NCBI RefSeq assembly: GCF_001866075.3 | Contig: NZ_CP063356.1 | Coordinates: 2,966,164 to 3,030,163 of the forward strand | Source: Anaerobacillus isosaccharinicus | GTDB lineage: Bacteria > Bacillota > Bacilli > Bacillales > Anaerobacillaceae | Length of the DNA: 64,000 nt | Direction: 5' to 3' | Shown here: positions 30,086 to 36,496 of the stretch, in pieces | How positions within the stretch are numbered: the stretch's first letter is position 1 | Layout of the letters: every line of letters starts with the position of its first letter | Made by a program: the position numbers and the translations under genes | The notes under the pieces: model-generated | Database searches by the model: none | Told to the model about the DNA's origin: nothing | The model's input: only the letters and a program-made list of their open reading frames with translations

Positions 30086-31147
30086 ATGGAAAATTGTCAA
30101 AAGTGTTCAAGAGCAATTGATATTTATGACCAAGGAATTCTTGAGTTGCAATCTATACAACCGATTATTACCGCGATTAAAAATAGGCTCTCTACTTTAA
30201 AAATCCCCAATGAAAGTACTAACATTCAAGTTAAATTTCAGTACTCAACAGTAGAGGATTTGATTTTATTTCTGCAAGAAATTGAAGAATTATTTAATAG
30301 CGAAACGAAAAATAAATTGCTTTGTCAGGCAAAGTCACCTGAAGTTGATGTTGAAGGGGTCACGATCCCATTCACTGAATTAGTTGAACGGGTGAAGAAT
30401 AGAGACCTATTGAATGTCATCAATGACCAACTTTTTACTAGCTTTCTTCAACCAGTTGTCTCTCTAGAAACGTTAGGGGTATACGGTTACGAGTTTTTAC
30501 TGAGGCCAGACTCCGACCAGATAACGTTTAATCCTGGAGAATTATTTTCGTTTTCCAAAAGAGCTGGTCTACAGTCATTGCTCGACGGCCAGGCTAGACT
30601 TTCCTCTATCGAAACAAGTTCAAAGTTGCTACAAAAAGGTATAAAGAGATTTATAAATTTTTTACCATCATCAATCTATGACCCAAATCATTGTTTAAAA
30701 AGTACATTTTCTGCTGTTGAAAAGTATGAAGTAGATCCTAAGGATTTAGTTTTTGAGGTTGTTGAAACAGAAAAAATTAAGGACGTGGGACATTTAAAAA
30801 ACATTTTTGACGTGTATAAAAAGCATGGAATGAAAGTTGCTTTAGATGACTTAGGTGCTGGATATGCGACACTAGAAGTTTTAAAGGAATTAAGGCCGAA
30901 TTTCGCAAAAATTGATCGTTCCATCATTGATTTCTGTGACAGAGATACGGATAAACAGGGGAAAATTAGTAATATTGTTGAAATTGCTAATGATTATAAT
31001 ATTATCCTTCTTGCTGAGGGAATTGAACGAAAAGAGGAAGCACAATTTTGTAAAAGTATTGGAATTCCACTAGCTCAAGGTTACTTTTTTGCCCGTCCAG
31101 CACCAGTTCCTTTAAGCGATTCGAGACTTACAAATTTAAGCCTATAA
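30086..31147 (+). CDS. EAL-domain cyclic-di-GMP phosphodiesterase
   Basis: A 353-residue soluble protein. The first ~100 residues form an unassigned helical region beginning with CQKC. The EAL domain follows (about 105-345) with EFLLRP in place of EALLR, RFINFLP (Asn), FEVVETE, LDDLGAGYA, FAKIDRS, LAEGIE and QGYFFARPAP. All metal and catalytic acid positions appear retained, so phosphodiesterase activity is likely. There is no GGDEF partner. It ends at a bidirectional terminator shared with the convergent lipoprotein gene. Confidence 0.88.
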   Translation: MENCQKCSRAIDIYDQGILELQSIQPIITAIKNRLSTLKIPNESTNIQVKFQYSTVEDLILFLQEIEELFNSETKNKLLCQAKSPEVDVEGVTIPFTELVERVKNRDLLNVINDQLFTSFLQPVVSLETLGVYGYEFLLRPDSDQITFNPGELFSFSKRAGLQSLLDGQARLSSIETSSKLLQKGIKRFINFLPSSIYDPNHCLKSTFSAVEKYEVDPKDLVFEVVETEKIKDVGHLKNIFDVYKKHGMKVALDDLGAGYATLEVLKELRPNFAKIDRSIIDFCDRDTDKQGKISNIVEIANDYNIILLAEGIERKEEAQFCKSIGIPLAQGYFFARPAPVPLSDSRLTNLSL

Positions 31148-31187
31148 AAAAAGGCTTCGCTTCAGAAGTCGCGATAGCCTTTGTTTT
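31145..31187. terminator. Bidirectional terminator between the EAL and PCYCGC-type genes
   Basis: AAAGGCTTCGC pairs with GCGATAGCCTTT (one bulge). A run of T follows on each strand. Confidence 0.75.
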
Positions 31188-31643
31188 TTAATGCCCAGGC
31201 GGGTAAGGTGTTGGTGTTGGTTCAGCGTATTTTGAGTATTCTTCATCAATATATTCTCGAATTTCTACAACTGATAAGCCTTCTTCATGTAGTTTTTGCA
31301 CATCCAGTGCAATTTCGATACAAATCCCTCAGCCAACGCCGTGCTGATCATAGACAATCAGTTCATCGGTACTTTCTGTATTAGAGATGAAGCAATCTTT
31401 GACATTGTTGTGGTTAAATGGATCAATGTAACAATTGCAATAACAAGGGATATATTCTAGGATTCCTTCTTCTGCATCTACAGCATATTCATAAGCAGCC
31501 ATTGCACCAGGGTAATTTGCATTTAAGACATAATCAGGGAAATTATATGGATTAGCATCTTCTTGCGAACTATTGCACCCTACTAATATAAGTAGGAGGA
31601 ATGCTGCTAGAAAGAAAGACTTCTTTTTAAATAGTATTTCCAT
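31188..31643 (-). CDS. PCYCGC-type lipoprotein with in-frame UGA; candidate selenoprotein
   Basis: From ATG 31643 (after GAGGGTGG) the frame runs 104 codons, meets TGA (31331-31329), then stays open 46 more codons to TAA 31188. It encodes a lipoprotein signal (LLLILVGC), PCYCNC (PCYCGC family motif), DCFIS, and YDQHGVG-UGA-GICIEIALDV, ending in EPTPTPYPPGH. In relatives as I recall them the residue at the UGA is Cys, followed by xxC, so decoding as Sec gives a UxxC redox motif. A hairpin 22 nt downstream fits a bacterial SECIS. The alternative is a nonsense mutation of a TGC or TGT codon. The protein would face the outside of the membrane; the family's function is not well established. Confidence 0.68.
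31296..31312 (-). promoter_or_regulatory. Candidate bacterial SECIS hairpin downstream of the UGA
   Basis: On the minus strand TTGCAC (31312-31307) pairs perfectly with GTGCAA (31301-31296), enclosing loop TGGAT. The loop begins 22 nt after the UGA, and G is its second base. Known bacterial SECIS elements have a short stem, a small loop with a G in the first two positions and 16-37 nt spacing. Confidence 0.55.
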
Positions 31644-31893
31644 CCATTCCACCCTCGTTTCTATAAGTATTTTTATAAGTTTATTATATAATGAATTGAC
31701 CATTGAAATAGTATTTTTTATCACAATTCACGATATCATCAAACATGCTAAAAATCATGTGATATTATGTGAAACAATGGGTGGGCGATTAATAACGAGT
31801 GACGAGTAAATTCAATAGCAGCATCAAGTCTAGTGCCGCGACGATTTAAGGATTTAGAATTTTGATTACCAAATAATTATTAGGAGGTTATCT

Positions 31894-32818: not shown

Positions 32819-32901
32819 GTAAGCGTCAAATACTCCACACCTTCTAATAATTACCGTGTTTTGTGATAATCACATTAACATCAATTGTTAGGAGGTTTTT
32901 T

Positions 32902-33225
32902 ATGTCAGTAGATGAACGTAAACAAATGTGGGAAGATCGCATCGACGCCTACAGATCCAGTGGAGTGCCAAGTGTCAAAGCTTGGTGTGAACAAAATCAA
33001 GTAGGTGTTCAAAGTATGTATAGCTGGATGAAAAGATTGGAAACTGAGCCGACTCACGTCGCTTATCCTCTTACACAATGGGTTGCCATTGATTCATCCA
33101 ACTCGATTGAAGAAACAGCTACTTTAACAGTTAAGGTAGGCGATGTTTCAATCGAAATTAAAGAAGGCTTCAGCCATTCACTTTTAAATGAAGTACTTCA
33201 GGTTCTTCAATCCCATGTTAAGTAA
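32902..33225 (+). CDS. IS66 accessory protein TnpA (helix-turn-helix)
   Basis: 107 residues from ATG 32902 behind AGGAGG. The N-terminal part (RKQMWEDRIDAYRSSGVPSVKAWCEQNQVGVQSMYSWMKR, described here as residues about 5-45) is the helix-turn-helix typical of IS66 first ORFs. It overlaps the next ORF by 11 nt, suggesting coupling. Confidence 0.88.
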   Translation: MSVDERKQMWEDRIDAYRSSGVPSVKAWCEQNQVGVQSMYSWMKRLETEPTHVAYPLTQWVAIDSSNSIEETATLTVKVGDVSIEIKEGFSHSLLNEVLQVLQSHVK

Positions 33226-33571
33226 AACACCTATTCAACGAGTCTATTTAGCGGCGGGTGCAACAGATCTGAGAAAGTCGATTGATGGTTTGGCAGCGAT
33301 TGTTCAAATGAGTTTCCAATTGGATCCTTTCTCTTCCAATCTATTTGTGTTCTGTAATCGCAAACGAGATAAACTAAAGATCCTTCATTGGGATCATAAT
33401 GGGTTTTGGTTATATTATCGCCGACTGGAAAAAGGCGTTTTTCAATGGCCAGATGAACAAACTACTAAGCCGCTATCGATCAGTCCTCGCCAATTCAACT
33501 GGCTCTTGGATGGACTTCCACTTGAACAAAAACAAGCCCATCCAAAAATGAGTGCAAAATTTATCATATAG
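33215..33571 (+). CDS. IS66 accessory protein TnpB (Orf2)
   Basis: 118 residues from ATG 33215, inside the end of TnpA. It has the characteristic IS66 Orf2 pattern: [36 protein letters not shown] and [12 protein letters not shown]. It is needed for transposition, but its biochemical role is unclear. Its stop lies in the left arm of a hairpin preceding tnpC. Confidence 0.93.
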
Positions 33572-33605
33572 AGAGAATTGATCAACCACGACACCTCTCT
33601 ATATG
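33565..33605 (+). repeat. Hairpin between tnpB and tnpC of IS66
   Basis: CATATAGAGAG (33565-33575) pairs perfectly with CTCTCTATATG (33595-33605). It overlaps the tnpB stop codon and ends 13 nt before the tnpC start, so it may adjust transposase expression. Confidence 0.6.
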
Positions 33606-33618
33606 TTATTCTATTTAT

Positions 33619-35214
33619 ATGAGAAAAACGACGAATGAACTACTAGATACAATTGAAGAACTCGCAGCGAAAAATGCGGATTTGGAAAAACAAAAAGAAG
33701 TCCTAGAGGCAAAAATCAAATGGTTGGAAGAGCAATTCCGACTAAGCCAACAAAAGAAATTCGGGGCTTCGAGTGAAAAAACAAATCCGGATCAAATCGA
33801 ACTTCCTCTTTTTAATGAAGCTGAAATCACAGCGGATGTAAAAATGGAAGAACCTACACTTGAAACGATTACTTATAATCGAAAGAAGCATGTAGGACAA
33901 CGAGATGCGAAGCTTGAAAACTTGCCTACGGAAACGATCCATTATCGTTTATCCGAAGAAGAGCAGGTCTGTTTGTGTTGCGGTGAAACTGTACATGAAA
34001 TGAGTACGCAAACAAGACGTGAGCTAAAAATTATTCCTGCTCAAGTAACAGTCGTTGAACATGTTCGACATATATACAGTTGCCGTCAATGTGAACGCGA
34101 AGGAATAGAAACGCCGGTTGTCACAGCTAAAATGCCTGCGGCAGTCTTTCCAAAAAGTCTCGCTTCTCCTTCTGCAATGGCATATATCATGAATCAAAAA
34201 TACGTAGAAGGAATGCCGTTGTACCGAATCGAAAAACAATTTGAACGGCTGGGTGTCTTTCTATCACGCCAAACGATTGCCAATTGGGTAATATATGGTG
34301 CAACAAAGTGGCTCTCACCGTTATACAATCGCCTGCATGAGTTACTGCTTCATCTTGACCGTCTGCACGCAGATGAAACAACCGTTCAAGTTTTAGCAGA
34401 ACCTGATAAATTAGCAACTTCCAAATCCTATATGTGGTTGTATCGATCTGGTCGGGATGTTTCACCGATTGTCTTATATGACTATCAAACTTCTCGCCAT
34501 AGTAAACACCCGAAAGCCTTTCTAAAAGGATTTGCGGGCTATCTTCATGTCGATGGTTATGCAGGTTACCATGATATGAAGGATGTGGAGTTAGTTGGCT
34601 GTTGGGCGCATTCACGCCGTAAATACGACGAAACGCTCAAATCTTTGCCTGCAAGTGTAGATAAATCTACGAGTCTCGCAGCTGAAGGTCTTCACTTCTG
34701 TACGCAATTATTTAAAATTGAAAAACAGATAGAAGAGGAATTTGAAAATTGTAGTCCTGAACAGCGAAAAGAAGAACGTCAAAAACGTAGTCAACCTGTG
34801 TTGGACGCTTATTTGGCATGGCTAAAATCCAAACGCCCTCAAGTTCCACCTAAAAGCAAATTAGGCGATGCCATAAATTATAGTTTAAACCAATGGTCAA
34901 AACTCATTGTCTTTATGAAAGACGGGCGACTTGAACTCGATAATAATAGAGCAGAACGTTCAATTAAACCATTCGTTATGGGAAGAAAAGCATGGTTGTT
35001 TGCCCAATCGATGAAAGGAGCAACCGCCAGTGCGGTCATCTACAGCATTGTCGAAACTGCCAAAGAGAATCAATTAAATCCATTAAATTATTTAACTTAT
35101 CTTTTTGAACACTTACCACAAATAGACCTAGATGATCAGGAAGCACTTGACCAATTCCTTCCGTGGTCAAAGTCCATTCCAAATGAATGCAGGATCCCTG
35201 CTAAACTTAAATAA
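33619..35214 (+). CDS. IS66 transposase TnpC
   Basis: 531 residues: an N-terminal leucine-rich coiled coil (about 5-45), a zinc-finger region with CLCCGE and YSCRQCE, then the DDE catalytic core with acidic residues in [18 protein letters not shown] and [12 protein letters not shown], and the IS66 C-terminal segment. All parts are present, so the element could be active. Confidence 0.95.
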
Positions 35215-35288: not shown

Positions 35289-35975
35289 TTAGAAAGCTGG
35301 TGTAATATATGCCATATTCCCTGTAATAAGTAATAGCCCTAAAATAATTAAGAGAACACCACTTATGATCGAAATAATCCGCATATGTTTTTTTAGTGAG
35401 TTAAGGAATTGAAAGCCTAATGTACTTAAAATCCCGATAAGTAAAAATGGTAGTCCTAAACCTAAACCATAAACGAAAAGTAATCGCCCACCTCGCCACA
35501 TTGTATCGGAATCAGCAGCCATAATTAAGATTGAACTGAGCATCGGCCCAATACAAGGGGTCCACCCGAATCCAAAAGCGAGTCCCATTAATGCAACACT
35601 CCATAAGCTGTTCTTCTTTTTAAATAGGAAGTCTAAACGAAGCTCTTTATTTAAAAATTGGAATTTTAACAATCCTAATAAGTGGAGTCCAAACAAAATA
35701 ACAATGAACCCAAATAGTTTAGAGAAGTTTTGAGAATAACTGAGTGCTGCCGAACCAATTGTTGAGGCTGTCATTCCAAGTAAGATTAACGGGATAATTA
35801 ATCCTAAAATAAACATACTAATTCGAACAAGAATTTGTGTGCGATGGTGTCGGTTATCTTTTAATTCAGTAACGGATAGGCCAGTAATAACAGCTAAATA
35901 GCTTGGAATTAAAGGCAAAATACATGCAGATGTAAAAGACAATATTCCTGCAGTAAAAGCGAGAAGATAATCCAT
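35289..35975 (-). CDS. ccdA: CcdA-type thiol-disulfide membrane transporter
   Basis: A 228-residue DsbD/CcdA-family protein with six membrane segments. The two redox cysteines are in SFTSACILPLIPSYL (SAC where SPC is usual) and GWTPCIGP. It carries reducing power from cytoplasmic thioredoxin to an extracytoplasmic thioredoxin-like partner. The adjacent upstream gene encodes such a partner, ending 2 nt before this start, so they act as a pair, possibly in cytochrome c or other thiol-protein maturation. Confidence 0.93.
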   Translation of the reverse strand: MDYLLAFTAGILSFTSACILPLIPSYLAVITGLSVTELKDNRHHRTQILVRISMFILGLIIPLILLGMTASTIGSAALSYSQNFSKLFGFIVILFGLHLLGLLKFQFLNKELRLDFLFKKKNSLWSVALMGLAFGFGWTPCIGPMLSSILIMAADSDTMWRGGRLLFVYGLGLGLPFLLIGILSTLGFQFLNSLKKHMRIISIISGVLLIILGLLLITGNMAYITPAF

Positions 35976-35977
35976 AA

Positions 35978-36496
35978 CTACTCTCCTTTGTTATGGAACT
36001 TATTGAATGCATCATCATAACGCTGCAAAAGTTCTTCAGCATCTAAAATAATGTAAGGATAAGCTCCTAAGTTATTTCCTTCCTCATCAAGGAAAACATA
36101 GGTCGGAGAGACAGTTGCTCCGTAATGATTAGCAATACTACGATCTAAGTCTAAGCCATACAAATGAGTTGCTTTATATTCGTTTTCAAACTTATCTTGA
36201 ATTTCACTCCGCTTCCCATAAAATATAATCGTAATGACCTCAATGTCATCTTGTTCTTTCGCAAATTGTTGAATAAATGGCATTGAAAAACTACAACATT
36301 CACAAGGAACAGCTACGAATTGCAGAATGGTTTTCTTTTTGCCAATATATTGATCTAGCATAATAGGCTCTTCACCATTGAATCTCTCTAATGTGACAAT
36401 ATCTGGATTTTTATCTACGGCAAAAAAACCATAGAGGGTATAACCAATTCCACCTAAAATGAATAAAATAAGTACAATGGATATTTTGTTAATCAT
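35978..36496 (-). CDS. Membrane-anchored TlpA/ResA-like thiol-disulfide protein with CECC site
   Basis: 172 residues: an N-terminal anchor (about 5-26), then a thioredoxin fold facing outside. The usual WCxPC active site is replaced by PCECC, so the CxxC spacing is kept (C-E-C-C) with an extra internal Cys. The cis-Pro loop SPTYVF is present. It is the likely electron acceptor of the neighbouring CcdA. The extra Cys could allow metal binding, as in Sco-like proteins. AGGAGG precedes the ATG. Confidence 0.85.
   Translation of the reverse strand: MINKISIVLILFILGGIGYTLYGFFAVDKNPDIVTLERFNGEEPIMLDQYIGKKKTILQFVAVPCECCSFSMPFIQQFAKEQDDIEVITIIFYGKRSEIQDKFENEYKATHLYGLDLDRSIANHYGATVSPTYVFLDEEGNNLGAYPYIILDAEELLQRYDDAFNKFHNKGE

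Follow-up and report, generated by a model that had tools for sequence, protein, structure and literature searches.

Proteins of the PCYCGC family (PF13798) are described, in the accessible part of PMC13068155, as having, besides the PCYCGC motif, four other conserved Cys, one of which is the lipobox Cys; the function of the Parageobacillus thermoglucosidasius member is also unassigned there. A selenocysteine (Sec) form of the family has been listed before. The consulted portion of PMC13188914 tabulates a 'CYCXC family protein (hypothetical protein OS_HP4), PF13798, UxxC' and credits the entry to Zhang and Gladyshev 2007, a deltaproteobacterial symbiont study, and OS_HP4 is given as UxxC in the available part of PMC9312934. 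The excerpt of PMC2398784 names OS_HP1 and OS_HP2, not OS_HP4; the family was unnamed in the accessible sections of PMC5029168, and family terms were absent from the main text of PMC12013277. A search by title and abstract, with supplements and most subscription papers outside its reach, returned no earlier report of a Sec form in Bacilli. Here we analyzed a PCYCGC-family lipoprotein gene with one in-frame TGA (UGA-105) in a 64,000-nucleotide stretch of Anaerobacillus isosaccharinicus DNA (the window; contig NZ_CP063356.1, positions 2,966,164 to 3,030,163). Sequence comparison makes it highly probable that UGA-105 is decoded as Sec in this extracytoplasmic lipoprotein, because the UGA replaces an invariant Cys, the decoding genes are present, and the UGA-bearing copies share, 21-22 nt downstream, a hairpin that is conserved and covaries.

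The gene is a complete coding sequence on the minus strand (31188..31643, ATG to TAA), encoding 151 amino acids with residue 105 as the predicted Sec. An earlier account of the window made from its letters alone (the sequence-only reading) had reported this lipoprotein frame, broken by a single TGA and then open for 46 further codons to TAA, without stating the strand; the coordinates and letters held on rechecking. It had also expected automated callers to cut the protein at residue 104, and ordinary table-11 open reading frame (ORF) calling does end the gene at 31329. The TGA (codon 105, 31329..31331) sits where relatives carry the first Cys of CxxC, a Cys invariant across the aligned members when U is written as C; the predicted motif is UGIC, in which Cys108 (TGT, 31320..31322) is the second member of the UxxC pair. 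The family motif was found as PCYCNC (residues 66-71, 31431..31448), one letter (N for G) differing from PCYCGC, and a signal peptide with lipobox LVGC (Cys23) was recognized by eye from the translation at 31575..31643. The conserved set consisted of the three Cys of PCYCNC, Cys84, Cys108 and the lipobox Cys23, plus U105.

With the TGA read as Cys, residues 43-148 matched the PF13798 profile at 95.9 bits, above the curated cut-off of 25 bits. The match to NF041379 ('CYCXC family (seleno)protein', OS_HP4) covered positions 15-89 of 90 at 60.8 bits, below the NCBI cut-off of 90. The window protein is like OS_HP4 in its Pfam family, as listed in the portion of PMC13188914 seen, in its one predicted UxxC selenocysteine and in its CYCxC motif, but the OS_HP4 entry is credited to the deltaproteobacterial-symbiont study and the window protein belongs to Bacilli. 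It likewise shares the lipobox, PCYCGC motif and further conserved Cys with Bacillales Cys lipoproteins such as that of P. thermoglucosidasius (PMC13068155, accessible part), whereas these carry Cys at that codon, and no hairpin was seen in those scored. As far as we could see, the window gene is an additional member of an already listed selenoprotein family, in a lineage that is new as far as the searches reach. The sequence-only reading had proposed a Sec variant of a family usually annotated with Cys; the Sec assignment is supported by the selB association and hairpin given below, and its novelty is reduced by the earlier OS_HP4 listing.

The genome, a single 5.23-Mb contig with 100% completeness, was searched for sel genes, a check named in the sequence-only reading. 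selA, selB and selD were found in one stretch at 554, 357 and 408 bits, all above the NCBIfam cut-offs (TIGR00474, TIGR00475 and TIGR00476), and selD itself contained an in-frame TGA, in GGUGCK. ARAGORN identified two tRNA-Sec genes with anticodon TCA, both scoring 58.6 bits against RF01852. Three of the genome's formate dehydrogenase-like loci each had one in-frame TGA directly before His, which we take to be the usual place of Sec in such loci. The tRNA-Sec genes (L017 and L018), at C1:3587722-3587814 and C1:3725088-3725180, are separated by 137 kb and lie in a repeat of 291 bp whose copies are 95% identical. One copy adjoins a tyrosine recombinase gene (L018 6944-7927; Phage_integrase 122.9 bits) and the other a short ORF resembling part of that recombinase, and this duplicated arrangement suggests integration at selC.

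The distribution of the Sec form was determined in an even draw of 398 genomes from Bacilli, among them the one that contains the window, with selB called at E 1e-70 or better. PF13798 was present in 162 of these genomes and selB in 85. After low-scoring and second copies had been re-run, TGA was found exactly at the first Cys of CxxC in 20 genomes, all with selB; the remaining 142 family-bearing genomes comprised 24 with selB and 118 without a selB hit. Two weak fragments (G316 and G142) and a second, stop-free copy in G222 were omitted from site scoring; G316, which is below the cut-off, has several stops and does not cover the site, was still counted with the genomes that have selB but no TGA at this codon. 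Order-level relatives made up a second sample, in which nine of the 26 new family-bearing genomes had TGA at the site, again all with selB; the site was not located in 15 loci (L078-L082, L084, L086-L091 and L196-L198), the matches of which were stop-free. Pooling both samples, TGA occurred at the site in 29 of 60 selB-bearing and 0 of 128 selB-lacking family-bearing genomes (Fisher p 1e-17, relatedness not corrected for). Genome G413 carries a stop-free, higher-scoring paralogue (L174) as well as the Sec form (L206). Within the genus of the window, the gene was present in three of six other genomes, all three with TGA and hairpin. No family match was detected in the remaining three, which include the two least complete, at 80% and 62%. 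Relatives with TGC or TGT, scored below, lacked the hairpin; neither this comparison nor the search for sel genes, both named in the sequence-only reading as possible refutations, spoke against the Sec proposal.

These data also bear on the alternative in which no selenium is involved and the UGA-105 codon serves as a genuine regulated stop, or is translated as some other amino acid (Trp, for example), so that the lipoprotein exists in a short and a long form. The 104-residue product would retain the lipobox and the PCYCNC motif, and partial termination is compatible with the sequence data; however, the co-occurrence of selB in 29/29 genomes, the invariant Cys at the site and the SECIS-type hairpin make this explanation very improbable.

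The hairpin resembling a selenocysteine insertion sequence (SECIS) is located at 31296..31312 (minus strand) and reads TTGCAC-TGGAT-GTGCAA, with six Watson-Crick pairs, a loop starting 22 nt past the UGA and G at loop position 2, exactly as the sequence-only reading had described it. It satisfies the three constraints for bacterial SECIS elements (bSECIS) given in the accessible part of PMC13188914, in line with the claim that bacterial rules were matched; the published UGA-to-loop distance is 16-37 nt. When the sequence of this gene was recoded synonymously, a strict hairpin arose in 1.7% of 20,000 trials and a 6-bp form under a looser definition in 6.9% of 2,000, so that, taken singly, this hairpin seems only modestly unlikely by chance, and it is the comparative evidence that carries it further.

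For comparison, a strict hairpin was defined by a stem of 5 bp or more with at most one G-U and a 5-nt NG[GU]NN loop starting 21 or 22 nt past the UGA. It was present in every one of the 20 Sec loci (one to a genome) from the first sample, against 0.97 expected from synonymous recoding, and in none of the 12 Cys loci compared. Nine of ten further Sec loci also passed (29/30 overall), the lone failure, L199, retaining the stem with two G-U pairs. None of the 53 Cys loci scored in the second sample, which partly overlap the earlier ones, had the hairpin. The same was true of all 78 Cys loci among the 79 of 80 named loci scored (L124 is treated separately below); the other scored locus, L125 from a Bacillota metagenome-assembled genome (MAG), had TGA and a perfect 7-bp hairpin. 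Cys forms are over-represented in the named set, as tblastn scores are lowered by a TGA and sequences close to the window's genome may be missing from it. The loop was UGGAU at 22 nt in the window's genus (4 genomes) and in G433, G056 and G071, and CGUGA or CGGGA at 21 nt in all other Bacilli Sec loci.

The four loop-proximal pairs were Watson-Crick in 20/20 Sec loci, with two to four pair types each. In the 17 loci that share one register, pairing was seen in 95.1% of cells, compared to 76.4% after shuffling, and the covariation score was 0.545 versus 0.173 in shuffles and at most 0.127 on sliding; two other measures on these loci were not distinct from shuffles. The hairpin is conserved and covarying in the UGA-bearing copies and absent from the examined Cys copies. 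It could instead be a by-product of the amino acid sequence (IARDA or IALDV) that carries no signal, since synonymous recoding of single Sec sequences does yield a strict hairpin in 2-7% of trials. We consider this most unlikely in view of the 20/20 observed against 0.97 expected, the stem pairs that change together, and genome G057, in which IARDA is retained with Cys yet the stem is lost.

The family tree (57 rows) requires four label changes between Sec and Cys forms, and the tree test did not reject a single clade uniting the Sec forms from Bacillota and the G057 Cys row (p-AU 0.155). The nearest tree relative of the G057 Cys form (L058) was the Sec form of G072 (L056), with support of 99/98. 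G057 still codes IARDA at the place of the SECIS, and its genome, 86% complete, gave no selB hit; the pair looks like a Sec-to-Cys reversal. Over 32 codons past the UGA, each of the six same-genus pairs had a nonsynonymous rate (dN) below the synonymous rate (dS), with ratios of 0.09-0.28 in four pairs and 0.45 and 0.52 in two. The sequence-only reading had left room for a nonsense mutation or sequencing error truncating an ordinary Cys-form gene; decayed copies with stray TGAs do occur (G222, in the signal region, and G294, a fragment, both degraded, with Cys at the site and no selB hit), but TGA at the identical codon in 29 Bacilli genomes (the window's own among them), all with selB, together with the conserved, covarying hairpin and dN below dS past the TGA, leaves truncation a very slight chance.

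Following established bacterial Sec biology, SelA and SelD would make Sec-tRNA-Sec, SelB would bind the hairpin and bring Sec-tRNA-Sec to the UGA, and the Sec-containing protein would then be exported and lipidated. Less certainly, Sec105 and Cys108 may form a redox pair at a helix N-terminus, and the protein may function at the cell surface as a thiol-disulfide (or metal-thiol) oxidoreductase whose helical fold resembles that of CcmH. The top structural matches were the CcmH N-terminal domains 2hl7 and 2kw0, with weak scores; these have a similar helical hairpin with a GKSxxEI...Y tail, whereas the CxxC lies further from the helical hairpin. The window protein did not match PF03918 (CcmH), and among 28 family members one did, at E 0.03. 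This match carries little weight because several unrelated Pfam families score single members as well or better. No strong relative was returned by Pfam, Foldseek or VIA. In a sequence search of solved structures, two thioredoxin matches at E about 0.5 were taken as chance. A CcmH-like role for the PCYCGC lipoprotein is tentative, and we give it somewhat less than an even chance.

Forms with two TGAs were found outside Bacilli. In L124, a locus of a MAG that bears the title Thermoleophilia, TGA stands at the two Cys positions of CxxC (UPLU). The family was present in 20 of 299 genomes of that class, and counting sites that share their first 50 nt once, and leaving three family matches without a locus unscored, 31 distinct sites were obtained (11 UxxU, 12 UxxC and 8 CxxC). 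By a rule widened after the data were seen (loop start 21, 22 or 26 nt), 11/11 UxxU, 10/12 UxxC and 0/8 CxxC sites had a hairpin with the NG[GU]NN loop, where 1.6, 1.2 and 0 were expected. In all 11 UxxU sites the loop started 26 nt past the first UGA and 17 nt past the second, both within the published range. The one family genome of this class examined for selB, G442, had it. The UxxU loci (L124, L250, L252, L253, L259, L260, L263-L265, L267, L269 and L272) carry one hairpin of varying sequence that remains paired. UxxU is tabulated for a different family in the part of PMC13188914 seen. A broader view, to which we give slightly less than an even chance, is that the PCYCGC family consists of CcmH-like redox lipoproteins of the cell surface that gained Sec in several lineages, with hairpin registers of 21, 22 or 26 nt, and that in Thermoleophilia the two active-site Cys were both exchanged for Sec (UxxU), a single hairpin directing Sec at two UGAs nine bases apart.

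Around the window gene, a likely ribosome-binding site, GAGGGTGG, was recognized by eye 5 nt 5' of the ATG (31649..31656, minus strand; letters checked). A terminator-like inverted repeat, AAAGGCT...AGCCTTT with T runs in both directions (31146..31189, by eye only), separates the gene from a convergent EAL-domain gene. No conserved neighbour was found within about 6 kb on each side of 19 Sec loci, no cluster other than the gene itself occurring in more than four genomes. Among the loci inspected by eye, the window arrangement recurred only in same-genus G398, not in G401 or G433; for the Parageobacillus member, an Fe3+ binding-protein neighbour is reported in the accessible part of PMC13068155. 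An IS66 element (32863-35214; transposase 330.5 bits) lies between a PAP2-family gene and a DsbD_TM/CcdA-like gene in the window, and none is present at the matching place in G398 (L210). The minus strand at 35289-36496 encodes a membrane protein like DsbD_TM/CcdA and a PCECC-containing protein of the Redoxin family, and such genes are close to the lipoprotein gene in G398 too; the pair is a possible electron supply for the lipoprotein.

As far as the literature searches reach, the spread of the Sec form in Bacilli, the tentative CcmH-like fold and the occurrence of UxxU, in which two UGAs are followed by a single hairpin, are new. The first of these adds many Bacilli to a selenoprotein family that had barely been described, and there standard ORF calling would cut the lipoprotein at residue 104 and lose the UxxC pair. 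The UxxU forms would offer a direct means of asking whether one SECIS serves two UGAs, and the Sec/Cys alignment singles out residue 105 as likely redox-active in a lipoprotein family of unassigned function.
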